This document shows, in pieces, positions 17,562 to 32,848 of a stretch of 50,240 nucleotides of DNA (positions within the stretch are counted from its first letter, which is position 1; every line of letters starts with the position of its first letter). The position numbers and the translations under genes are program-made. The stretch spans positions 1 through 50,240 of the forward strand of contig JAJRQV010000003.1 in NCBI GenBank assembly GCA_024280035.1. The letters are read 5' to 3'. The stretch is from Campylobacterales bacterium (GTDB lineage: Bacteria; Campylobacterota; Campylobacteria; Campylobacterales; Sulfurimonadaceae). The notes under the pieces are model-generated. The model saw only the letters and a list, made by a program, of their open reading frames with translations, was not told the origin of the DNA and made no database searches.

Positions 17562-19897
17562 ATGCTAACCATTCTTCCTACCTCAAGAGCCATACGCTCA
17601 GTTATCTTAAAAGAACAAAATCATGATAAGTTTTTACCATCTTATATTACTATGTCAGAGTTTCTACAACGTGTTTTAGTAGTTGATAATTATCAGCGTG
17701 TTGATGATGATACACGAACACTTACACTTTTAGAAGCTTCTGATTTTAAAAACTTTGCAAGCTTACAAATAGAAAGAAACTTTTTTACCTTTACCCAAAA
17801 TTCTTCGTATATATTTCGTTTTTTTGAAGAGTTAAGTGGTGAGTTAGTAGACATTAATGAGCTCTCTTTAGCTGATACTTATGGAGACTATGAAGAGCAT
17901 ATAGAAATCTTACAAGAACTCTATTTTCGTTATAAACAATTGTGTGATGAGAAAAAGATTTTAGACCCCATTTTTTTACCTAAGATGTACAGACTTAATG
18001 AGGTTTATATACAATCACAAGAAGAGATTTTACTTGTACTTGAAGGTTATTTAACAAATTTTGAGTTAGAAGTATTGCAAAAATGTGCGCAACTTGTACC
18101 CTTTAAATTACGTTTTTATGCGAACCAATTCAATCTGAAGATGCAAGAGAAATTTGTAGATTTAGGCATTAATTTGGTACCTGATAAAAATCAAATTATT
18201 AATTTAAGTACACTCCGTATTGAAGCATCTAATTTTGTAAAATCTAATGCTATTGTTGAGTGTGAGAGTTTTTCCCAAGGTCTCTTGCAAGTGGCTTTTA
18301 TAAAGCAAAAAGTAAATGCTTTTATAAGTAAAGGAATAGAAGCTGAAAAAATTGCTGTTATCTTACCAAATGAGAATTTTGCTCAACACCTAAAACGTTT
18401 TGATGAGAAATGGAATTTTAACTTTGCTATGGGAGAGAGTTTACAAAGTAGTACGTTTATACTCTCTTTGAGTGCAGTTACTCAATATTTAGATAATCAA
18501 ACAGTACAAAACAGAAGTCGTCTTAATCGTATGGGTATTGAACTCTTAGACGCCTTTTCATCTGTGTATAAACAAGAGATTGAAACTATTGATTTTCGTT
18601 CTTGTTTAGAGATTTTTATCGCTAAAGAATCGAATAAAACAATCTTAAAAATTATAAATGAAGAGCTTTTTTATTTTGAAAAACTTTTGCCTATTTTAGA
18701 AGGAAGTTCTTTTAAGACGGCACTTCATCTTTTTATGAACCGTATTAAAAATAGAAGTCTTGATGATGTTCGAGGTGGAAAGAGTACGGTTATGGGTGTA
18801 CTTGAAACACGTAGTGTAAGTTTTGATGGGGTGATAGTTGTGGACTTTAATGAAGGTACAGTACCTCGTAGAAGTGAGAAAGATCTATTTTTAAATTCGG
18901 CAACAAGAGTTAAGGCAGGGCTTCCTGGAGCAAGTGATAGGCAAGCCCTACAAAAACTCTATTATAATAATTTATTCTTACGCGCAAAAGAGGTTGCTAT
19001 TTCGTATGTAAATTCAGCTGAGGCACTTCCTTCTCGTTTTTTAATGCAGTTAGGTATTGAAACTCATCAGCAATTTGATGAGTTAGATTATTCACAGATT
19101 TTATTTCAAAATCATGTACAGATAAGACGTGAAGAAGAAAAGATTGAATACGATTATGATTTTACTTCACGCACACTATCTGCAACAGGTTTAAAAAGTT
19201 TTCTAACATGTAAACGGAAATATTATCATTACTATATTCAAGGTTTAAAAGAACATGATATTGAGTTAGACCTCCCCAAAGAACATGAAATAGGAAATGC
19301 CTTGCACGACGCTCTAAGAGATGTGTATATGAAAAAGAGTCGTTTCACAGATAAAAGTGAACTGAGTAAGGAGATATCCCTTGCCTTAGAAGAAAATTCT
19401 GCTGATAATATCTTAACTAAGTACCAACATAAGCTCTGAATGCAACAGTTAGAACCATTTATAGATAATGAGATAAAACGCTTTAAAGACACAGAAATAA
19501 GGGCGTGTGAGTTGGAACTGTCTAAAAAGGTTAATGGTATTACAATAGGTGGAAAGATAGATAGACTTGATAATACTGTGGAGGGTTTAGAGGTTTTAGA
19601 TTATAAGTCTGGCTCTTATCCAAAATATAACCCTAAAAGTGTTGAAAAGGCGACAGATTTTCAACTAGAATTTTATTATCTTTTAGCACAAAATGAGGGA
19701 GAGGTTAATGCCTGTGGGTATTATGATCTAAAACAGGGGAGATTATTAATGAAGACCTACTTGAGACAAAACTTGAACTTTTAAAAGAGCATCTTGCAAG
19801 ATTAAAAGAAACAAAACGTTTTAACTTTGAAAAAACAGAAGTCTTAAAAGATTGTCAATTCTGTCCGTATACCTATCTTTGCGGGAGGGAGAAATAA
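17562..19897 (+). pseudogene. addB: AddB-type helicase-nuclease subunit, interrupted by a stop and a frameshift
   Basis: AddB of the AddAB double-strand-break repair complex: an inactive helicase-like region (about 1-500) and a C-terminal PD-(D/E)XK nuclease. The frame is broken twice. A TGA at 19437-19439 interrupts ...KYQHKL before MQQLEPF in the same frame. A one-base loss in a G-run (GGGG at 19736-19739) then shifts the frame: adding one G restores GEIINEDLLETKLELL... to the end at 19897. All motifs survive: the first Fe-S cysteine in SFLTCKRKYYHYY, the nuclease residues GKIDRLDN and LDYKSG, and the cysteines in CQFCPYTYLC. The ATG at 17562 (after AGGTG) is preferred over GTG 17556. The stop overlaps the addA start (TAATG). 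Either recent inactivation or sequence errors; the part after the TGA would be lost if translated as given. Confidence 0.8.
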
Positions 19898-22602
19898 TGT
19901 TTATAGACTTTCATGCTTATGAGGCGAGTGCGGGATCAGGAAAAACCTTCTCTTTAGTTGTTCGTTACTTAAGTCTTCTTTTTTCAGGAGAAAAAGCAGA
20001 TAAAATTTTAGCCTTAACCTTTACCAATAAAGCTGCTAACGAGATGCAAGAGCGGATTATCAATACCTTAATAGATTTAGAAAACAAGGGTGAACTTAAT
20101 GAAATTGCTAAAATCCTTGAGTCCAGTAAAGAGGAGATTCTTTTACAAAGACAAGAGGTTTTACAAGAGCTTTTAAATGCAGAGACTAAGGTAATGACCT
20201 TAGATAAATTTTTTGCAAAAATTCTTAGAAAATTTTCACTTCATGCTGGGCTTATGCCAAACTTTTCTACCTTTGAGTCTCAACATGAACTCAAAGTAAT
20301 GGCAAGATTTTTGACCTTAGTAAAGGTTCAAGGAAAAGAAAAAACCTTAATTTCTCTCTCTCTTTTAGCATCAAAACGATTGACAGGGATTTTCTCTTTG
20401 CTTAATGAATTGTATGCCAAAAAGAATGAGATGAATGCCTTAAGTTTTAAAAGTGAAGACTTTTATGTTCATGAACATATTGTTATGCAAAATATGAAAG
20501 AACTAGAAGCCCTTTTTATGGCAACAGATTTGAATACGAATGCTAAAAAAACAATGCGGGTTGACAATATTGATGCACTGATGAAGAGGTCATGGATAGA
20601 AAAAGATAGTTTGGAATATTGGCAATATAAAAAGTTTTTTCAACCGCGAATGGATGAACTTTTATTTGAGATTAAAGAACATCTATTTTATTACATGAGA
20701 GCAAAAGAGGCGCATTTTTTTCATGAACTTTTTTCCCTTTTAGATATTTATATAGAAGCAAAGATGATGGTAGCAAAAGAGGATGAAGAACTCTCTTTTG
20801 ATGATATTACTTATTTGGTATTTTACCTACTTAAAGAGCGTGTAGACTCTGAGTTTTTATATTTTCGTTTAGATGCAAGAATTAATCATATGTTACTGGA
20901 TGAGTTTCAAGATACTTCTGCAGTACAGTTTGAAATTTTACGTCCCTTGATTGAAGAGATGATTTCAGGAAAAGGTTCAAAAGAACGTTCTTCCCTTTTT
21001 CTTGTGGGTGATGTAAAACAGTCTATTTATCGCTTTCGTGGGGGTAAAAAAGAGCTGTTTTATGCTGTTACTGAGCATTTTGATGTAAAGGTTGATCAAC
21101 TTGAAACGAACTACAGAAGTGAAAAAGAGGTAGTAGAGTTTGTTAATAGAACCTTCCTTGAAAAGATTAAAGGTTATGCCCATCAAAAGGTGAAAGACGG
21201 AGCTACTGAAGGCTATGTTGAAGTGATTTATTCAGAAGAGATTCTAGAAAAAATGTTAGAGCTTGTAAAAAGACTTATTGAACAAGGTGCTGAACTAAAT
21301 GAGATTGCTATTCTTACAGCAACTAATGCTAATGGAGCTTCAGTTCAAGAACTTTTACAAGCCCAAAATATTGATGTAGTGACAGAAACAAATTCAAAAC
21401 TTATCCATCAAAAACCTATTGAAGCCTTGATTGAGTATTTGAAATATTCATACTTTCATAAGGAGATTTATGCCCGAAACTTTTTTTCTTTAATTGGACA
21501 AGAACCTACAAAACTTTATGGCTGTGATGTAGACTCAAGTGATTTAGTATATGAGTTAAAGAAGGTGATTAAGAAGTACAAGATTTATGATAAGGACATG
21601 AATATTTTAAGTTTCTTAGATAAACTCTCACACTACAAAGATATTGAAGCCTTTTTATATGAGTACGAACGTCTTGATGCGAGTTCTGCGCAAAAAGAGC
21701 TTACGGGGGTACGTGTCTTAACTGTACATAAATCAAAAGGTTTAGAATATGAACATGTGATTGTTCTTGACCGATTAAACAAGGCATCTGCGGATAAAAG
21801 CCCAATAATATATGAGTATGATGGGATTCATTTAGAAAATATTTATCTTCGTATGAGTAAACGTACTTCTTTAGATGAAGCCTATAACTTAGCCCTTGAA
21901 AAATAGAAAAAACTTTCTAAAGAAGATGAACTTAATGCTCTTTATGTTGCTTTTACTCGTGCAAAAGAGACCCTATTTATTATTCAAAAAGAGAAAAACT
22001 CTAAATTTGAAGACCTAAATCTTAGTGAAGAGTCTTACGGAAATTTAAAACTAAAAATCAAAAATAAGAAACCAGAAATTAAGTACAAAAAAATGGAGTT
22101 TCAAGAAAGATATTATGGTAGCCAAGATGACCTGCTAAGTGTAGTGGAGAATGAAGATTTAGATTATAAGGCGATTGAGTTTGGACTTGCCTTACATTAT
22201 ACCTTAGAGATGATGGAGACTTTTGAAGAAGAGAAAATTGAACTGGCCGTAAGTAGTACTCAAAATCGGTATGGGGCTGTTCTTGAAGAGAGAGAGTTTA
22301 CAGATATTAAAAATAGAATAGCTAGGTTAATACAAAATACACCGTTCCAAGAACTCTGTTTAGGAAAAATCTATAAAGAAAAAGCTATCTCTTTTGAGCA
22401 AAAATTGCGTTATATTGACCTTCTTATAGAAAAAGAAGATAGCTGGATAATTATTGATTATAAGTCTGCAATGCGGCATACCTCGTCTCATTTAAAACAG
22501 GTAGATTTTTATAAAAAAGCAATTTCTAAAATTACAGGGCAAAAAGTAAGTGCTTATATCGCTTATCTTTTAGAAGATGATATAAAACTTATTGAGGTTT
22601 AA
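19897..22602 (+). pseudogene. addA: AddA-type helicase-nuclease subunit with an in-frame TAG
   Basis: UvrD-like helicase plus nuclease subunit of AddAB (RecBCD-like) for resection at double-strand breaks. Helicase motifs in order: ASAGSGKTFSL (residues 10-20), the AxTFTNKAA motif, LLDEFQDTS, VGDVKQSIYRFRGG, TNYRSEKEV, LTVHKSKGLEYEHVIV and, after the stop, NALYVAFTRAKE. The C-terminal nuclease has YIDLLIEKED and IIDYKSA. A TAG at 21904-21906 (codon 670) ends the first part; the same frame continues to TAA at 22602 with clear homology. The true start is the ATG at 19897 after GGGAGGGAG, not the upstream TTG of the same frame inside addB. A truncated protein would lack helicase motif VI and the nuclease, so it should be inactive unless the TAG is misread or is a sequencing error. 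Confidence 0.8.
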
Positions 22603-22784: not shown

Positions 22785-24020
22785 ATGAAAAAGAACTTGA
22801 TTACATTAGGTTCTATCTTAATTATGGCAACAAATGCGTATGCTTTAGATAAGGTTAGAATAAGTGGGTATGCAACAGCAGCCGGTGGTTATATATCAGA
22901 CAGAACTGTGGGAGCATCTACTTTTGCTCCAGCACCAGGGCATGATGGTTATACACAAGAAGATATTAAATTTCAACCTGATTCTGTTGCCGGTTTACAA
23001 GTAAGTTCTCGTATTGCAGATAATATGACGGTAACGGTACAACTTGTGGCGCAGTTTGATAATGAGCAGGGTGCAGTTGAATTAGACTGGGCATATATGA
23101 ATTATGAGTTAACAGATGATTTAATTATTCAAGCAGGGCGTTTTGTACCTCAGCTTTTTTTATATTCTAACACAGTAAATGTTGGTTTTACTTATTTATG
23201 GATTACGCCTCCTTCAGAAGTATATGATCAAGCTCCAATGCGATATACAGATGGGGTTAACTTTTTATTAGATCATACCTTTTCAAATGATGTAACGGTT
23301 GAAGCCAGTCTTTATGCTTCAAATGTATCTCAAGATATTAACTTCGCTGGGCAATTGTTCCCTTCTAAGTTTGAAAACTTTGTTGGTGGATCAGCAAGTA
23401 TTAGTAATGAATATATTAAATTACGTGCTGCTTATGTGCAAACAGATATGAGTTCAACTTTAAATGGTGCAACACCTGCTGCTTCTTTCTTAGCAACAGC
23501 AGGTAATTTAACTAACCCTGGATTAGATAATATTGAAGGTATTAAAGCAGACGGTGCTAAAGGAAAATTTAGTACAGTTGGTTTAACAATTGATGCTGCA
23601 GATATTATTGTAGTAGGTGAATATACCGTTCGTAATATTAAAGACAGTATTGTTACAGAAGATACAATCTCATATTATGGAACCTTAGGGTACAGAATAG
23701 GTGATTTTACACCGCATATTACTTACTCAGTACTAGAAACAGATTTTAAAGATTCAAATGAGCCTGTTTTTTTACTTGACCCAATTGCGGGAACATCTAC
23801 TCAAGTAGGAACTGTTGGTGGTATTAGATCATCTATTTCAACAGATACTGAGACTGTAATTGTAGGTTTAAGATATGAGATTAACTCAAAAGCTGCCTTA
23901 AAATTTGAGTATCAAAATATAAATGCATCTCCTCAAGAGATTAATGCTCCAATATTTTTCTCAACACGAGAAGATTCAAGTGCTAATTTATATAAAATTG
24001 CACTTAGTGTAATCTTTTAG
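22785..24020 (+). CDS. Outer-membrane porin-like beta-barrel protein
   Basis: A 411-residue protein with a signal peptide (1-20, ending NAYA) and alternating beta-strand sequence to the end, closing with a terminal strand KIALSVIF that has the C-terminal Phe used for outer-membrane insertion. The ELDWAYMNYELTDDLIIQAGRFVPQ segment is characteristic of Gram-negative porins. The substrate is unknown. It is followed at 9 bp by a small periplasmic binding-like protein, a pairing often met in this phylum. AAAAGGGGA precedes the ATG. The 182-bp upstream region contains inverted repeats (CTATAGCA/TGCTATAG; TCTAATC/GATTAGA) but no gene. Confidence 0.8.
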   Translation: MKKNLITLGSILIMATNAYALDKVRISGYATAAGGYISDRTVGASTFAPAPGHDGYTQEDIKFQPDSVAGLQVSSRIADNMTVTVQLVAQFDNEQGAVELDWAYMNYELTDDLIIQAGRFVPQLFLYSNTVNVGFTYLWITPPSEVYDQAPMRYTDGVNFLLDHTFSNDVTVEASLYASNVSQDINFAGQLFPSKFENFVGGSASISNEYIKLRAAYVQTDMSSTLNGATPAASFLATAGNLTNPGLDNIEGIKADGAKGKFSTVGLTIDAADIIVVGEYTVRNIKDSIVTEDTISYYGTLGYRIGDFTPHITYSVLETDFKDSNEPVFLLDPIAGTSTQVGTVGGIRSSISTDTETVIVGLRYEINSKAALKFEYQNINASPQEINAPIFFSTREDSSANLYKIALSVIF

Positions 24021-24029
24021 GCGGTTGAT

Positions 24030-24437
24030 ATGAAATATATATTATTAAGTTTATTATTTTTAAGCACTCTTTTTGCTGACATTGTTGTTATTGTAAATTC
24101 TGAGTCTAAGGTTGAAACTCTAAATGATGATTATACAAAAATGGTCTTTATGAAAAAAATCAAAAGATTACCAAGCGGTGAGGTTTTAATACCACTTGAC
24201 CATAACTCTGAATCAGAGATTTATAATAATTTTTATATGTCAGTAGCGAATAAAAACAAAAGTAGAATGAGTAAGTATTGGGCTAAGCGTGTCTTTACGG
24301 GCAAGGGTCAAGCTCCAGAAGTGCTTGCTTCTGATGAAGAAGTTATTAGAAGAGTAATGAACAATATCAATAGTGTTGGATATATTAATTCCGAATCTCT
24401 AGTTGATGGAGTTAAGGTTATTTATACGGTTAAATAA
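24030..24437 (+). CDS. Short periplasmic substrate-binding-like (PstS-like) protein
   Basis: A 135-residue exported protein with a signal peptide (MKYILLSLLFLSTLFA). It resembles the short phosphate-ABC-transporter-like substrate-binding proteins (PBP-like domain) that consist of only one lobe: IVVIVNSESKVETLNDDYTKMVFMKKIKRLPSGEVLIPLDH, then a region KSRMSKYWAKRVFTGKGQAPE and a C-terminal segment SVGYINSES. No permease or ATPase is nearby. It probably works with the porin upstream. It ends at a terminator (24441-24460). Confidence 0.7.
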   Translation: MKYILLSLLFLSTLFADIVVIVNSESKVETLNDDYTKMVFMKKIKRLPSGEVLIPLDHNSESEIYNNFYMSVANKNKSRMSKYWAKRVFTGKGQAPEVLASDEEVIRRVMNNINSVGYINSESLVDGVKVIYTVK

Positions 24438-24440
24438 AAT

Positions 24441-24460
24441 CAGGTCTTAGACCTGTTTTT
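24441..24460 (+). terminator. Terminator after the PstS-like gene
   Basis: CAGGTC-TTA-GACCTG followed by TTTTT: a compact 6-bp GC-containing stem and T-run, beginning three bases after the stop codon. Confidence 0.8.
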
Positions 24461-24508: not shown

Positions 24509-24548
24509 TCGTTCGAAAATATTTGGGAAGATATTAGGGGTGGGAATT

Positions 24549-26264
24549 GTGAAAATTATAGTGATTTTATGGCTGCTTGTTTTAGGTATTGAGGCTAAGA
24601 ACATTAGCTTAGCGGACATGAAAAAAGAACAAAGAGTTGCTTTTATTATAGAAAATACGGACTATGAAGGGGTGCTTAAGCCTAGGCTAATAGATAAGGT
24701 TAATGGGGTTAAGAAGTTTTTAGACAATAACGGTTTTAATGTTATATATCTAAGAAATGCTAATCGAGCAGAGACTATACGCAGCTTTAGAAGTTTTAAT
24801 GTTAAATTAAAAGAAGGTGGAATTGCTCTTTTTTATTTTAGAGGGCATTGTGTACAGTTGGCCGATAAAAATTACCTTTTACCTATAGATGTTCTTGAAC
24901 ATAAGGATAAAGGTGTTTCAAAAGTACTGACTATAAATGCAGTTTTAGCGGTTATGAATAAGGCAAATAGCCGAATGAATATGCTTATTATTGATAGTGT
25001 AGATAATAAAGAACTTTCAAAAGAACTCCATATCAAAAAAAAAGGATTGGCGAAATTAAGAGTTGAGCCAAACACAGATTTGATAATTTCAAGTAAGGTT
25101 AATTCAGTAAGAAGAAGCAGAAATTTTACCATACAACTTCAAAAAATATTTAGTGAAAAGGGTGTTTCTAATAGAGATGGTTTTACTAAATTTAAAAAAG
25201 AAAACAGCAAAGCTTATGTAAAACTCTCGCAAGAAGAATTTTATTTTAAGCTTCCTTCTAGACTTTTAAGTGCAGAAGATAAACTTTGGAAAAAAAGTTT
25301 AGCCTTGTCTTCACTTGCTTCGTTAAATGAATATCTTCAAAAATATCCTCATGGAAAATATAGATCTCAAGCTAGTAACTCTATTAAAAAGATTAAAACA
25401 AAAAATGCTGAACGTGAGGCTAAATCTAAAGAGATAGCTAAGATAAAGGAAATAGCTGATAAAAAATCTGCTCTTGAAGATGAGATTAAAAAGAAGCTTG
25501 AATTAGAACTTGTAAAAATTAATGAGGCTAAGAAAAAAGAGGATTTAGAAAAACTTCAAAAAGCCAAACAAGAAAAACCAGTTGAAAAGACGATAGTTGA
25601 GGTGAAAACTATTAAAAAACCCAAGATGTATAAACAAGCTTTTTATGTGGAACCTGAAATGGTAAAGCTTATTTCTACCCCAACTCGTAATAGCTTTTTT
25701 ATAGGGAAGTATGAGGTAAGCAATAAAGAATACAAGGCATTTGTCCAAGCAACACAAAATAATAAGAATTATTTAAGATATGATAGACGAGCAGATGAGC
25801 CTGTTGTTAATGTGAGCTTTGAAGAAGCAAAAGAGTATGCTCAGTGGTTAAGTGCGATGAGTGGTAAAAAGTATAATCTTCCAATAGAAGCGCAATGGGA
25901 ATATGCGGCAAGAGCGGGTTCAGATACAAATTATTTTTGGGGAAACAAAGATGTTAGTATGAAAAAAGCATATTGGCTTCAAGGTAGAGCAAATAATGCC
26001 CATTTGTATGCGTGGATGAAAAGTAACTCAGAAAATGAAGTTCATAACATTGGTGAAAAAGAGCAAAACCCGTGGGGATTGTATGATATTTATGGAAATG
26101 TAAGTGAATGGTGCATTAATACAGACAGTAGTGATGGAAAACAAGCTCTTCGTGGAGGGTCTTTTTTATCAGATACTATGGGAATTCGATCACGTTCAAA
26201 GGTGTATAAAGATGAATTATATAAGAGTAAAGATATTGGTTTTAGACTGGTGAAGGAGATATAG
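24549..26264 (+). CDS. Secreted caspase-like (pseudo-enzyme) protein fused to an FGE/SUMF-type domain
   Basis: A protein of about 571 residues: a signal peptide (IILVILW-type hydrophobic stretch, residues 1-16), a peptidase C14 caspase-like domain (about 27-235), a Lys/Glu-rich coiled coil (about 285-350), and a C-terminal formylglycine-generating-enzyme/SUMF1-like domain (about 365-571; FFIGKYEVSNKEYKAF, LPIEAQWEYAARAGS, WGLYDIYGNVSEWC, LRGGSFL). The catalytic His of the caspase is kept in FYFRGHCVQ, but the Cys expected in the DACRN motif is replaced (LIIDSVDNK; Val codon at 24999-25001), so proteolysis is unlikely. I choose the GTG at 24549, which follows AGGGG and starts the signal peptide; the frame also opens with GTG 24540. 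A paralogue follows directly. Role unknown; scaffold or binding functions in the periplasm are possible. Confidence 0.75.
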   Translation: MKIIVILWLLVLGIEAKNISLADMKKEQRVAFIIENTDYEGVLKPRLIDKVNGVKKFLDNNGFNVIYLRNANRAETIRSFRSFNVKLKEGGIALFYFRGHCVQLADKNYLLPIDVLEHKDKGVSKVLTINAVLAVMNKANSRMNMLIIDSVDNKELSKELHIKKKGLAKLRVEPNTDLIISSKVNSVRRSRNFTIQLQKIFSEKGVSNRDGFTKFKKENSKAYVKLSQEEFYFKLPSRLLSAEDKLWKKSLALSSLASLNEYLQKYPHGKYRSQASNSIKKIKTKNAEREAKSKEIAKIKEIADKKSALEDEIKKKLELELVKINEAKKKEDLEKLQKAKQEKPVEKTIVEVKTIKKPKMYKQAFYVEPEMVKLISTPTRNSFFIGKYEVSNKEYKAFVQATQNNKNYLRYDRRADEPVVNVSFEEAKEYAQWLSAMSGKKYNLPIEAQWEYAARAGSDTNYFWGNKDVSMKKAYWLQGRANNAHLYAWMKSNSENEVHNIGEKEQNPWGLYDIYGNVSEWCINTDSSDGKQALRGGSFLSDTMGIRSRSKVYKDELYKSKDIGFRLVKEI

Positions 26265-27892
26265 ATGAGACTGTTTTTAATAGTATGCCTTATGTTTACA
26301 TTTTCTTTAGAAGCACAAATAAGTTTAAAACTTATGCAAAAAGAAAAACGTGTTGCTTTGGTCATAGTAAATGATAAATACCAAGGATTGAAAAAAATAC
26401 GGCTATTTATGGAAAAAATAGTATTAATAAGTTTTTGAAAAGTAGTGGCTTTGAAACAATATATTTAAGAAATGCCAGTAGAACTCAAATGATTAAAGCA
26501 TTACGAAAATTTAGAGATACCTTAACGAAAAAGTCAATTGCCCTATTTTATTATAGTGGGCATAGTATTCAGATTAAGGGTAAAAATTATTTACTACCAA
26601 TAGATACGCTAAATGATTCTAAAGATCCTAGCAAAATGAAAATAGAGTTACAAGCAATCTTAAATGTTATGGAGAGGTTTTCAAGTCGTAAAAACATGGT
26701 TCTAATTGATAACATAGATAACCGAGTGCTAAGAAAAAAATTCGAGGTAAAAGAAATAGGTTTATCAAAAATAAAGGTACCTAAAAATACAGACCTTGTT
26801 GTCACAAATAAGCCAAACTCAATAAGCCTTTACTTAGGTAAAAGTGCTTTATCTACAGGTGTCTCAAATAAAGAGGGTTCTCATAGTTTTAAAAGTATTG
26901 ACCCAAAAGCGTATGTGAAATTATCAAAAAATACATTCTACTTTAGAGTGCCAAACAGTGTAAAAAAAGTTAAGCCAAAAGTATCTAAAGAGGATGTTTT
27001 ATGGGCAAGTACACTAAAAAAGAATACTTTATACGCTTACAAAACTTATCTAGTAGCTTTTCCATTAGGTAAACATATTACTGTAGCAAAAACAAATATA
27101 CAAGGTTTTGAGGCTAAAATTGAGCTTCAAAAGAAAATCGACTTGGCATTAAAAGAAAAGAAGTTACAAGAGTTAAAAAAACAAGAGATAGAGAAACAAC
27201 GTTTACGTACTAAGTTAGAGGCAAAGAAAAAAGAAAACTTATATATTGAGCCTGAAATGGTTAGAGTTTTTCCTGGAAAGTATAAAATGGGGTGTTCTAC
27301 ATGCTCTAACCGTAATGAAAGACCTCTTCATTATGTAAGTATTAAAGATATTTTTTCTATAGGAAAGTATGAGGTCAGTAATGCTGAATATAATAGTTAT
27401 TTACTTTCTATGAAAAAGCAAAAGAGTGATGCTGATAATGAGCTTCCTGTAGTTAATGTTTCTTGGGAAGATGCGAGTGCTTATGCCTTGTGGTTAAGTG
27501 AAAAAACAGGTAAAAAATATACATTACCAACTGAATCTCAATGGGAATATGCCAATAGAGCTGATAGCAAAACAAAATACTATTGTGGAAATCAAGGTTC
27601 AAAATCTGGAGCATATGCCTGGGGAAAAAATAATTCAGGTCTTGTCTTACATAAGATAGGTCAAAAAAAGCCAAATAAATGGGGTATATACGACCTCAGT
27701 GGAAATGTATCTGAATGGTGTATCGATGATTATCGTGCTGACTATACGCAAAAAAGCCATAATAAGCATAATAAGGTTGTTCGTGGAGGCTCCTTTTTAT
27801 CTATTTCAAAGGATTTAAGTGCAAGTCACCGATTTTTTAAACGCGATACTTCAAGGCATCAAGATATAGGTTTTAGATTAGTACAAAACTAA
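26265..27892 (+). pseudogene. Second caspase-like/FGE protein, two frameshifts near the 5' end
   Basis: A paralogue of the preceding gene, starting with ATG directly after its stop codon. The signal peptide (MRLFLIVCLMFTFSLEA) and ISLKLMQ are in one frame, KEKRVALVIVNDKYQGL in a second, and TAIYGKNSINKFLKSSG onward in a third, which stays open to TAA 27892 (485 residues from a TTG at 26435). Each shift is repaired by removing one A from an A6 run (26338-26343 and 26392-26397). The rest is well preserved: LFYYSGHSIQIKGKNYLLPID with the His, LIDNIDNR where the caspase Cys is again missing (Ile codon 26714-26716), and an FGE domain (FSIGKYEVSNAEYNSY, LPTESQWEYANRA, WGIYDLSGNVSEWC, VVRGGSFL). Either a recent pseudogene, homopolymer sequence errors, or slippage-dependent expression. 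Confidence 0.7.
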
Positions 27893-28044: not shown

Positions 28045-30423
28045 ATGTATAAAATTATAGTCTTTGGTATTTTTTTACTTATTGTTTATGCTGGATATAT
28101 ACTGACTAAATTTTCCTCCCCTCCTGATCCAATTAAAATTGTTTTACAAGATAAAAAAATCGAATACAAAGAGGTTCAAAAGGTTTTAGATAAACGTTGT
28201 GTTACCTGTCACTCTTGTTATAACTCTCCTTGTCAGGCTAAGTTTTCTTCTTTTGAAGGTTTAGACAGAGGGGGTTCAAAAGATACGGTTTATGGGACAA
28301 GACTCTTTATCGCAAGTGAACCCTCTAGACTTTTTATTGATGCTAAAACAAGTGAAGCGTGGAGAGATAAAGGTTTTTTTTCTTTAACTTTTAATAATGC
28401 CAAAGAGGGTTATAACAACTCTATATTTGGGCAGATGATTAAGACGATTGATACGAATCAGGTGTATGAAAAAGAGTATGATGCTGAAGCTAAGGATATG
28501 GTCTGTGCAAAAGAGGGTGCAGAGCTTACTCAGTTTCGTAAACAACGTAAACATTCTCAAATGCCATTTGGTTTTCCTCGGCTTAAGGAGAGTGAATACA
28601 ATACGCTTATGCAATGGTTAGCACAAGGAGCAAGTGGTCCAAGTGTTTTAGCCGAGGCATTACTTAAAACACCATGTGCAAAAGCTTATGAAGAGATTAG
28701 GCAATGGGAAGACTTTTTAAATCAAGATGATGCTAAACATGCTATGACAGCGCGGTATCTATATGAGCATTATTTTTTAGCACATATCAATTTTCAAGAA
28801 GACCCTAAGGCGTTTTATTCACTTGTTCGTTCTTCAACACCAGCTCCTTTAAGCGCAGATAGATTAACAACACTTCGTCCTTATGATAAACCTGAGGTAA
28901 AGAAGTTCTATTACCGATTTATTAAAATTCATTCAACTATTGTACATAAGACACATATGCTTGTAAAATTTAATGCGGCTGAGTTAAAACGAATTAATAA
29001 ACTTTTTATAGATGTTGACTGGTTAGAAAAACCTCACCGTATGCCTTATGAAGATAAAACGAAAAGTAATGCTTTTTTGATTTATGCTCAAATTCCTTCT
29101 GTATCTCGATACAAATTTTTACTTGACCATAATGAGTACATTGTTCGTACCTTTATTCGAGGACCAATCTGTAAGGGTAATATCGCTCTCAGTGTTATTC
29201 GCGACCATTTTTGGATTATCTTTCAAAATCCAGAATATGATATAGGTGTAAATTCTCCCGAGTTCTTACACCAACAGTCTCAGAACTTACGTCTTCCTAC
29301 GGAGAGAGGAAGTTCAATGGTTTCGGCTTGGATGTTTGAATCTTTTGGGGAAGATTATCGAAATAAATACCGACGTTATTATGATGCAAAAATGAAAAAA
29401 AATCTGGAGTTTTACCCTGATGGAATGCCTATTGAAAGTATCTGGAAAGGTGAGAAAGCTACTGATGCCCCTGTCTTAACTGCGTACAGACATTTTGATA
29501 GTGGTAGCGTTAGAAAAGGGCTTTTAGGTAAATTGCCTAAGACAATTTGGTTAATTGATTATGCTCTTTTAGAACGTATTTATTATACGCTTGTAGCAGG
29601 GTTTGATGTATATGGAACGGTGTCTCATCAGATGGAAGTACGTTCTTATATGGACTTTTTTCGTTTAGAAGCGGAGTTGAATTATCTCTCTTATCTACCC
29701 AGTAAAGATAGGAACTCCTTACTGGATGAGTATTATCAAGGAGAAGGTGTATTTAAAGAGATTGAGATGAAGGATACGGCAAAAATAAGAGCCCAACATC
29801 AGTTTAAAACGCCTAGGGTGAAACAAGAATTCATGGAATTTTTAGTCAATACTCACTTCTTAAAAGAGACAAATATACATTTTGATACCATCAATTATTT
29901 TAGAATTGGTGAAAGTCCGCCACCTCTACCTGAGTATTACCACAGTAATGCTGACCTTATGCAAGGGCTTCGCTCTTTAACAGCAGAAGGAAATGGTTTT
30001 ATTCAGTTTATGACAGGAGAGGGAGTGAACCTTGCCTTTGTTCGTGTTCGAATGAAAAATACAAAAGATTTAAGAGGAAGTTTTATTGTTAATCGATGGC
30101 ATGATAATGTGAACTCTTATAATAAAGAAGAAAAAACCCTTAATGCTAAAAAAGATACACTTGATATTGTGGAAGGAAGTTTAGGCTCTTATCCAAACGT
30201 CTTTTTTGTAGTAGATGAAGAAGACCTTCCCGACTTTTTTGATATGATTAAAAACTTTAAACCTAATGCTTACTACTGGGCTAAGGCTAAAAAATATGCA
30301 ATTAGTCGTTCGGATAAAAAGTTTTGGGAACATTTTGATTGGTTTCAAGAGCAGTTTAAAAAAGAAAAGCCACTTGAAGCAGGGCTTTATGACTTAAATC
30401 GTTATTATAAACAGACTTGGTAA
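28045..30423 (+). CDS. cti: Fatty acid cis/trans isomerase, copy 1 (membrane-anchored)
   Basis: A 792-residue cytochrome c-type protein of the Cti family, which turns cis-unsaturated membrane fatty acids into trans forms in the periplasm and stiffens the membrane under solvent, heat or osmotic stress. An N-terminal hydrophobic anchor (4-22) precedes a heme-binding motif in DKRCVTCHSCYNSPCQAKF (about 50-67). Further family-like segments are MPFGFPRL, RYLYEHYFLAHI, IRGPICKGNIALSVI, RHFDSGSVRKGLLGKLPKT and VNRWHDNVNS. Length fits the family. A close paralogue follows 22 bp downstream. Upstream -10 candidate TAGAAT near 28014. Confidence 0.88.
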   Translation: MYKIIVFGIFLLIVYAGYILTKFSSPPDPIKIVLQDKKIEYKEVQKVLDKRCVTCHSCYNSPCQAKFSSFEGLDRGGSKDTVYGTRLFIASEPSRLFIDAKTSEAWRDKGFFSLTFNNAKEGYNNSIFGQMIKTIDTNQVYEKEYDAEAKDMVCAKEGAELTQFRKQRKHSQMPFGFPRLKESEYNTLMQWLAQGASGPSVLAEALLKTPCAKAYEEIRQWEDFLNQDDAKHAMTARYLYEHYFLAHINFQEDPKAFYSLVRSSTPAPLSADRLTTLRPYDKPEVKKFYYRFIKIHSTIVHKTHMLVKFNAAELKRINKLFIDVDWLEKPHRMPYEDKTKSNAFLIYAQIPSVSRYKFLLDHNEYIVRTFIRGPICKGNIALSVIRDHFWIIFQNPEYDIGVNSPEFLHQQSQNLRLPTERGSSMVSAWMFESFGEDYRNKYRRYYDAKMKKNLEFYPDGMPIESIWKGEKATDAPVLTAYRHFDSGSVRKGLLGKLPKTIWLIDYALLERIYYTLVAGFDVYGTVSHQMEVRSYMDFFRLEAELNYLSYLPSKDRNSLLDEYYQGEGVFKEIEMKDTAKIRAQHQFKTPRVKQEFMEFLVNTHFLKETNIHFDTINYFRIGESPPPLPEYYHSNADLMQGLRSLTAEGNGFIQFMTGEGVNLAFVRVRMKNTKDLRGSFIVNRWHDNVNSYNKEEKTLNAKKDTLDIVEGSLGSYPNVFFVVDEEDLPDFFDMIKNFKPNAYYWAKAKKYAISRSDKKFWEHFDWFQEQFKKEKPLEAGLYDLNRYYKQTW

Positions 30424-30445: not shown

Positions 30446-32848
30446 ATGAAAATACATCATCTTCTTTTTATCTCTTTTTTGCTTTTTGTAACAGGATGTT
30501 CATATTCTGCTCCTGACCCTATTGAAGTAAAACTCTCTTCTATAAAAGTAAACTACCTTACCGAGATTAAACCTGTTTTAGATAAGCGTTGTGTTGTGTG
30601 CCACTCATGTTATAACTCTCCTTGTCAAGCAAAGTTCAGCTCTTTTGAAGGGATAGACAGAGGTGGAAGTAAGGAAAAAGTTTATTTAGCTGAAAGACTT
30701 TTTGCCCAAGACCCTACACGTCTGTTTGTAGATGCTAAAAGTACGCAAGAGTGGAGAGAGAAAAAGTTTTTTTCTTTAACACAGAATCCTGATACTGCTG
30801 AAATAAAAAAAGATAATGAGGGAATTCATTATGAAGAGTCTATTATGGGGCATATGCTTTATGATAAAAAAGATAATCCTGAGGTGATTGGGGAATATGC
30901 ACCCGAGTATGATGACTTAATCTGCCCTGAGAATTTGGATGAACTGGGTAAATATCAGGATAAACATCCTAATCATGGGATGCCTTATGGTTTTCCTGCA
31001 CTGAGTGAAAAAGAGTATAGTCTGATTATGCAGTGGCTTGCACAAGGAGCACATGGTCCTAATGAAGTGCAGCAAAAAAAATTAATAACACCTTCATTAG
31101 CGGCGCAAAAAGAGATTAGTACCTTAGAATTTTTTTTAAATAAGAGAGATATAAAACATCAACTTACCGCGCGTTATATATATGAACATTATTTTTTAGC
31201 ACATATCTATTTTGATACAGCTCCTAAAGAATTCTTTAACCTTGTTCGTTATCGAACACCTTCGGGTGAAGCAATTGATGTTATCGCAACACGACGACCT
31301 TATGATAATCCACATGAGGATAAATTTTATTATCGATTAGAAAAAATTCATTCAACTATTGTACATAAAACACATATTACCTCTAAATTTGGAGATAAAA
31401 AACTTGCTTTAATTCAAAAACTTTTTATAACTGTGCCTTGGTTACAAAAGCCTCATCTTATGTCATATGAAAAAAAAGATTCGGCAAATCCTTTTATTAC
31501 CTATGCTCAAATTCCGCCTGAGTCACGTTATAGGCTTATGTTAGATGATAGTGAGTATTTTGTACGTACCTTTATTCGTGGACCAGTATGTAAGGGTCAG
31601 ATTGCACTGAATGTTATACATGATCATTTTTGGATTTTTTTTCAAGACCCTCGCTTTGATATAGGGGTACAAAATCCACAGTTTTTAGTGAAACAAGCAA
31701 GCAATTTAGCTATGCCTATTGAAACGGGCAGTGAACAGAGTGTATTTAAAGTTTTTTCAGATAGATATAGAAATAGATACACGCAATATTATATGGCAAA
31801 AATGGATAAAACAGTCACAATGTATCCTAGGGGATTTCCTATTGAAGCGATTTGGAAAGGAGATAATGCTTCTGACTCTCCAGCATTAACCATATATAGA
31901 CATTTTGATTCAGCATCTGTTCATTCTAGTCTTTTAGGGGGATTACCTCGTACAATGTGGGTTATTGATTATGCCCATTTTGAAAGAATATATTATGCCT
32001 TAGTAGCAGGTTTTGATGTTTTTGGTAATGTCTCTCATCAGACAAATATACGTAGATATATGGATTTTTTACGTCTTGAGGGTGAGATTAACTTTCTTCT
32101 TTATATGCCAAAAGAGAAGAGATGGCTTATGTTTAAATCTTGGTATATAGGTGATTATCTAGGAAAAGACATTAATGCAAATGCTCACATAAAAGAAGAT
32201 ATAGGGCATTTTGGAAATAAAATTAAGTATAAATCCGACTTTGTTAAACAAGAGTTTGTAGAGGGTTTAATTGATAAACACTTTTTAAAAAATACTGCCA
32301 TGACACTTGATGAGGTTAATTACTTTAGAAGAGGTGAAACAATACCAAGTTTACCTAAGGTGTATAAGAATGAAGAAGATTTAGAAAGAGGAATACGTGC
32401 ATTAACAGCGCCAGGAACAGGCTTTATTAAACATGTTACCGATCAAGGACTTAATATTATTCATATCCGTGTTATTTTAAATAATACAAAAGAGCTTTTA
32501 GGTACTTTAGTGATTAATCGATGGCATGATAATGTTAATTCTCTGTTTGGAGAAAAAAGTCGTCTTAATTCAAATAAAGATACTCTTGATGTCTTAAAAG
32601 GAAATATTGGTTCGTATCCTAATGTTTTTACTGTTGTTAAAGAAGATGACTTACCTGATTTTTTTGATATGCTTGTTAACTTTAAAGAGACACCTGAATA
32701 TCTACAAAAGATAAAAAAATATGGAATTAGCCGTAATAATAAAGACTTTTGGAAAGAATATGATTGGTTTCAAGAGAAGTTTTATAAAGAAGAACCTTTA
32801 GAATCGGGTCTGTACGATTTAAATCGATATTATAAACAAGCTTGGTAA
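30446..32848 (+). CDS. cti: Fatty acid cis/trans isomerase, copy 2 (lipoprotein)
   Basis: An 800-residue paralogue of the preceding gene, similar over its whole length and ending with the same LYDLNRYYKQ-W. The N-terminus is a lipoprotein signal with lipobox VTGC (Cys near 18), so it is anchored differently from copy 1. The heme site DKRCVVCHSCYNSPCQAKF, MPYGFPAL, RYIYEHYFLAHI, IRGPVCKGQIALNVI, YRHFDSASVHSSLLGGLPRT and VINRWHDNVNS are all intact. No lesion is seen. Most genomes with Cti have one copy; the pair looks like a tandem duplication that has since diverged. Confidence 0.88.
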   Translation: MKIHHLLFISFLLFVTGCSYSAPDPIEVKLSSIKVNYLTEIKPVLDKRCVVCHSCYNSPCQAKFSSFEGIDRGGSKEKVYLAERLFAQDPTRLFVDAKSTQEWREKKFFSLTQNPDTAEIKKDNEGIHYEESIMGHMLYDKKDNPEVIGEYAPEYDDLICPENLDELGKYQDKHPNHGMPYGFPALSEKEYSLIMQWLAQGAHGPNEVQQKKLITPSLAAQKEISTLEFFLNKRDIKHQLTARYIYEHYFLAHIYFDTAPKEFFNLVRYRTPSGEAIDVIATRRPYDNPHEDKFYYRLEKIHSTIVHKTHITSKFGDKKLALIQKLFITVPWLQKPHLMSYEKKDSANPFITYAQIPPESRYRLMLDDSEYFVRTFIRGPVCKGQIALNVIHDHFWIFFQDPRFDIGVQNPQFLVKQASNLAMPIETGSEQSVFKVFSDRYRNRYTQYYMAKMDKTVTMYPRGFPIEAIWKGDNASDSPALTIYRHFDSASVHSSLLGGLPRTMWVIDYAHFERIYYALVAGFDVFGNVSHQTNIRRYMDFLRLEGEINFLLYMPKEKRWLMFKSWYIGDYLGKDINANAHIKEDIGHFGNKIKYKSDFVKQEFVEGLIDKHFLKNTAMTLDEVNYFRRGETIPSLPKVYKNEEDLERGIRALTAPGTGFIKHVTDQGLNIIHIRVILNNTKELLGTLVINRWHDNVNSLFGEKSRLNSNKDTLDVLKGNIGSYPNVFTVVKEDDLPDFFDMLVNFKETPEYLQKIKKYGISRNNKDFWKEYDWFQEKFYKEEPLESGLYDLNRYYKQAW

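Follow-up and report, generated by a model that had tools for sequence, protein, structure and literature searches.

A tandem pair of apparently exported caspase-like/FGE-like fusions without catalytic cysteines in a Campylobacterales bacterium

Two adjacent genes of a Campylobacterales bacterium encode proteins in which a caspase-like domain that has kept its histidine and lost its cysteine is joined to a domain resembling the formylglycine-generating enzyme (FGE). What role can such a pair have when proteolysis is gone? We analysed the locus in a window of 50,240 nucleotides, to which all coordinates refer. The window is contig C99 of a genome of 2.5 Mb in 107 contigs, with an estimated completeness of 100%. 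The other genomes of the same genus appear to be Sulfurimonas sp. MAG313, Arcobacter sp. NORP14, Arcobacter sp. LH_M16 and Campylobacterales bacterium Kmv12.

Both genes lie on the forward strand and abut, the stop codon of copy 1 ending at 26264 and the ATG of copy 2 starting at 26265. Pfam matched both domains in each gene, which bears out the original prediction of two neighbouring same-strand paralogues. For copy 1 the matches were Peptidase_C14 (PF00656, E 2.3e-9, passing the cut-off) and FGE-sulfatase (PF03781, E 5.6e-40), and for copy 2 the E values of the same two families were 2e-8 and 4.4e-46. With a C-terminal FGE-sulfatase domain on a p20 protein, both copies are caspase-FGE fusions.

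Copy 1 (24549–26264, 571 aa) is predicted to be exported. It starts with GTG, and of this codon and an alternative GTG at 24540 the former is the likelier start, which agrees with the start of the orthologue (locus L035, beginning MKVVLLLVFLLSSVLAKE) when the two N-termini are compared. A signal-peptide-like N-terminus, MKIIVILWLLVLGIEA|KN, occupies 24549–24602, with the boundary placed by eye and a helix at residues 2–14 of the structural model. The caspase p20-like domain follows (residues 20–237, 24606–25259; Pfam, profile and structure matches). After it the model places a helical hairpin (residues 242–265) and a single helix of about 68 residues (272–339), a possible coiled coil (together 25269–25565). 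The FGE-like domain closes the protein (residues 364–571, 25638–26261; Pfam, alignment and structure). The predicted structure had a pLDDT of 84.9, with a caspase fold and an FGE fold besides the long helix.

Copy 2 (26265–27892, forward strand) is a paralogous fusion whose frame is broken in this assembly. The signal peptide and the start of p20 are read in frame 1 from the ATG at 26265 for about 48 codons (26265–26412; profile match 26265–26414). A one-base frame change then occurs at an A-run (26413–26418), and the rest of p20, the helices and the FGE-like domain lie in a downstream open frame (26435–27892) that opens inside p20. A profile search accordingly detected two pieces in different frames. 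The domain order signal peptide, caspase, coiled coil and FGE had been proposed for both proteins; it was confirmed for copy 1, and in copy 2 it is interrupted by the frame break, the open frame 26435–27892 carrying no signal peptide. The MAG313 orthologue of copy 2 (L035:7688–9313, reverse strand) is intact and 542 aa long; its predicted structure, for which the alignment was shallow, was of poor quality (pLDDT 61.7). Judged from the sequence, copy 2 in this genome is either recently broken or mis-sequenced. Programmed frameshifting was rejected, as inspection by eye found no classical slippery heptamer in the right frame.

The GH motif is present in both copies, as FYFRGHCVQ in copy 1 (His100, 24846–24848) and FYYSGHSIQ in copy 2 (His at 26561–26563). 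When aligned to 96 homologues that have both His and Cys, the cysteine position is occupied by Val151 in copy 1 (24999–25001, also placed by the MALT1 alignment) and by Ile in copy 2 (26714–26716), just as the original prediction had it. The same position lacks cysteine in all 22 members of the clade to which the copies belong. GH was kept and Cys was replaced, by Ala, Gly, Ser, Val or Ile, in 17 of 17 relatives from the genus of the window and a second genus; five further members have lost the His as well. The fold itself is a true C14 fold. MALT1 paracaspase is the closest solved caspase both by sequence (clade profile versus MALT1, E 2e-13, with MALT1 DMC aligned to D-S-A of the clade) and by fold (Z 20.9 for the caspase part of the copy 1 model), and the model thus confirmed the caspase relationship suggested earlier. 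MALT1 differs from the window copies in having the Cys and being an active protease. The copies therefore belong to Peptidase C14 by profile and fold and fall outside its active proteases, with the His kept and the Cys gone.

Loss was not limited to the nucleophile. The Cys, the Gly after the His, the Arg after the Cys and the substrate-loop columns 175, 179 and 185 were lost in 17/17 relatives, and each of these positions is 90–100% conserved in the 96 intact homologues. The Asp of the ND motif, present in 100% of active homologues, was Asp in only one of the 17. At the same time, the fold core was invariant, alignment columns E26, R28, A30, N35, Y38, F62, F82, G98, H99, N107, Y108, M136, R142, N144, D149, F231 and F233 being kept in all, and new clade-specific near-invariant positions were observed at columns 56, 66, 185 and 193. 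D149, two positions before the lost Cys, and the ND Asp presumably take the places that two acidic residues occupy in the basic S1 pocket of MALT1; the first was kept and the second lost. So clean a division of conserved positions gives the picture of a fold that was probably kept for something other than cleavage. Some catalysis could in theory remain through another nucleophile, for example the Cys that follows the His of the GH motif in copy 1 (GHC). Of the 22 clade members, 1 has this Cys, and the MAG313 orthologue has Val there. No cysteine of p20 is common to more than 3 of the 22, so that no conserved replacement exists, and the Gly, the Arg and the residues of the substrate loop have also disappeared; we regard residual catalysis as highly improbable.

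A pseudo-caspase may also regulate an active caspase or serve as its decoy, on the model of human FLIP(L), a pseudo-caspase that is paralogous to the caspases initiating apoptosis (PMC7586951). The genome of the window yielded no active C14 protein. All three of its C14 matches lack the Cys, including a third paralogue on contig C75, and this argues against an inhibitor of an active paralogue here. The C14 matches of four other genomes (G001, G003, G004 and G005) were cysteine-less as well. One genome of the same genus (G002) carries an intact DSCFSGG protein; for the pair as a whole we consider a decoy role very unlikely.

Did the two copies lose their cysteine separately, as had been supposed? 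In a tree with the catalytic columns masked and long branches removed, the 22 cysteine-less sequences formed one side of a single branch (SH-aLRT 100). With masked catalytic columns, the cysteine-less set was set apart at 99/99, except for one very long outlier. On this tree the loss has one origin, inherited from one ancestor and common to an older single-copy gene, which contradicts independent loss in the copies. Each window copy has one MAG313 copy as its sister, which dates the duplication to before the split between the two genomes; the grouping of the four pair sequences as one clade had a support of 30. The older single-copy gene is found at an oad/ppa locus (gene names that are our own reading of the sequences) in five genomes of the window's genus and eight of the second genus. 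Its neighbours are a small membrane protein and oxaloacetate decarboxylase subunits, in some genomes with ppa, SLT-like and SNase-like genes. Pair and single copy descend, as far as the tree tells, from one ancestral cysteine-less caspase, and the genus still has the single copy. An isolated Q/S pseudo-variant (L048) fell among active homologues and is a separate loss. It comes from a distant Campylobacterales genome, G035, with at least eight caspase-domain proteins (L043–L048, L051 and L052), several of them with varied C-terminal domains.

Could the pair simply be duplicates without present function that are being lost from this genome? Besides the frame break in copy 2, addA has an in-frame TAG at 21904–21906 where MAG313 has Glu, and addB has an in-frame TGA at 19437–19439 where MAG313 has Trp and a further break at about 19735; both genes are whole in MAG313. 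If real, these breaks would disable AddAB recombination. Assembly noise more typically produces homopolymer slips than nonsense changes, so true decay in this stretch is possible, and the region is perhaps decaying here, which counts against a function of the pair. On the other side, the Nei-Gojobori dN/dS between the window and MAG313 was 0.20 for copy 1 (dN 0.26, dS 1.30) and 0.18 for copy 2 downstream of the break (dN 0.27, dS 1.49), rough figures with dS close to saturation, and about 0.1–0.3 for neighbouring genes where calculable. Judging from these ratios of about 0.2, both copies were under purifying selection like their neighbours. The orthologous pair is intact in MAG313, copy 1 is intact here, and the breaks may be assembly errors. 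Decay is thus an unlikely explanation. The proposal of selection for a non-proteolytic role is strengthened by these values together with the kept fold, its invariant core and the missing conservation of any other p20 cysteine.

The second domain has lost its catalytic residues as well. In a profile alignment to T. curvata FGE, the first catalytic cysteine is replaced by S at GGSFLC and the second falls in a deletion. The domain of copy 2 (27242–27889; Pfam and alignment) reads RGGSFLS, with S in place of the C of the enzymes. In the clade, the FGE-like domains hold a single Cys, in EWC, and window copy 2 has a few non-equivalent ones. Neither copy has the counterparts of Cys336 and Cys341 of human FGE that define the enzyme; the effect of the two cysteines on activity has been reported (PMC4505483). 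An active FGE serving sulfatases was ruled out, since the cysteines are missing and the four sulfatase-fold proteins of the genome contain no CxPxR motif. The FGE-like domain is absent from 10/22 clade members; it is therefore not essential to any clade-wide function, which would reside in the pseudo-caspase part.

In structural comparison, the FGE part of the copy 1 model matched TvpA best (Z 23.9), followed by PorK (Z 21.3) and FGE (Z 21), and PvdO and CarF were also among the nearest. The TvpA match raises the idea that the proteins are targets of a diversity-generating retroelement (DGR). No reverse transcriptase domain was detected in the genome (0 PF00078 matches), and we rejected this idea with hardly any reservation. 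The PorK match points elsewhere. PorK/GldK have an FGE fold that lost both key cysteines and was repurposed, in PorK as a structural hub at the outer membrane (PMC12421860). They differ from the window proteins in having no caspase domain and in having the partner PorN, and the window proteins stay far below the PorK/GldK NCBIfam equivalog cut-off of 350 bits (55 bits for copy 1, 84 bits for copy 2).

Our best reading, to which we give a probability of roughly 55%, is that the pair forms a small transcription unit of exported, probably periplasmic, non-catalytic double pseudo-enzymes with a scaffold or binding role. The periplasmic location is predicted, as is oligomerisation, and binding is inferred. 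The proteins would act without catalysis. The 68-residue helix of the model suggests oligomerisation, and the FGE-like domain may serve as a binding or assembly hub as PorK does in type IX secretion. A protein or peptide may be bound by the pseudo-caspase head, which retains GH and the Asp at the second position ahead of the missing Cys. The two paralogues could then be divergent subunits of one assembly.

A transcription unit of its own is suggested by a terminator-like hairpin with a T tail (24441–24455, forward strand, consensus match), which would part the pair from the upstream genes; three such hairpins were found in the region against 1.3 expected. Upstream lie a porin-like gene (22785–24020) and a gene for a 135-aa secreted protein that has no confident family assignment (24030–24437), the hairpin standing between the latter and copy 1. 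MAG313 likewise has addA, the porin gene and the 135-aa gene ahead of copy 1, and its intact copy 2 orthologue comes directly after copy 1. Downstream of the pair are two tandem fatty acid cis/trans isomerase (CTI) genes (28045–30423 and 30446–32848), each of them intact and of full length according to Pfam.

No conserved partner gene was found when the neighbourhoods of the pair and of the single-copy gene were compared. The upstream porin/135-aa pair adjoins the caspases in only two genomes, and homologues of the 135-aa gene are present in 126/228 genomes of the family. The gene for the small membrane protein that neighbours the single copy is present in 146/147 family genomes. From these distributions, neither gene tracks the caspase, and the oad/ppa site is a stable address rather than evidence of a partner. 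A PADLOC scan gave no match for copy 1, a match at E 0.005 with a generic 'caspase' model for copy 2, and none for the scanned neighbours; an anti-phage caspase system was rejected, having neither PADLOC support nor defence neighbours.

Signalling of stress or death without proteolysis has to be weighed against the scaffold or binding reading. It would resemble SyOC, the Synechocystis pseudo-orthocaspase whose deletion raises oxidative-stress tolerance (PMC7889975), and would tune survival under oxidative or envelope stress. Pseudo-orthocaspases, bacterial p20 homologues without one or both dyad residues, exist in large numbers and form clades (PMC6426788), and both copies fall under this definition. 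The published variants, in the part of that survey available, carry Y/S for His/Cys; in our clade the His stays. The proteins also appear exported, and no stress genes are conserved alongside them. A SyOC-like role is consequently improbable, although not negligible.

How new is the pair? It is a new clade of an already published kind, and the earlier expectation of an undescribed system was not upheld, since no conserved partner or defence association was found and both fusions and pseudo-orthocaspases are in the literature (PMC3501461, PMC6426788). The available part of a 2012 survey counted 33 caspase-FGE fusions among 671 sequences, ranked FGE as the fifth most common partner, marked one Trichodesmium metacaspase-FGE fusion as CH-negative and found the dyad retained in 84% of bacterial sequences (Asplund-Samuelsson et al. 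2012, PMC3501461). The domain pairing of our proteins is identical to that of these fusions, whereas the tandem arrangement, the long helix and the cysteine-less FGE-like domain are not described in that part. In a 2019 survey, 858 of 9,994 bacterial orthocaspases lacked the dyad, and 90% of the pseudo-orthocaspases came from Alphaproteobacteria and Cyanobacteria (Klemencic et al. 2019, PMC6426788). Like these proteins and SyOC (PMC7889975), our clade lacks the intact His-Cys dyad and is presumed non-proteolytic; unlike them, the proteins of the window are apparently exported and come from a Campylobacterales bacterium. The locus thus adds a well-supported pseudo-caspase clade beyond Alphaproteobacteria and Cyanobacteria, with the His kept and a second dead domain attached. 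The single-copy orthologue at its fixed locus offers a handle on the envelope role of a caspase fold once proteolysis is gone.

A second lineage shows a similar arrangement. Unrelated tandem caspase-like ORF pairs were found in four genomes of a sister genus (L231, L233, L234 and L235; genomes G011, G432, G430 and G433). They have signal-peptide-like starts and retain the GH, and the Cys is replaced by Ser (FIDASF/FVDTSF). A relative with an intact DSCFSGG is present in G002 (L230). Exported cysteine-less caspase pairs may have arisen at least twice in the family, which would make a two-subunit envelope assembly on the caspase fold a recurrent solution; we hold this as a tentative and rather doubtful idea. 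Our literature search found no description of a non-proteolytic two-subunit envelope assembly built on this fold.

The genome of the window also has a fourth FGE-like domain, on contig C76 (L201), in a 710-aa open frame where it is joined to a methyltransferase-like region. By eye, this protein resembles 5-histidylcysteine sulfoxide synthase.
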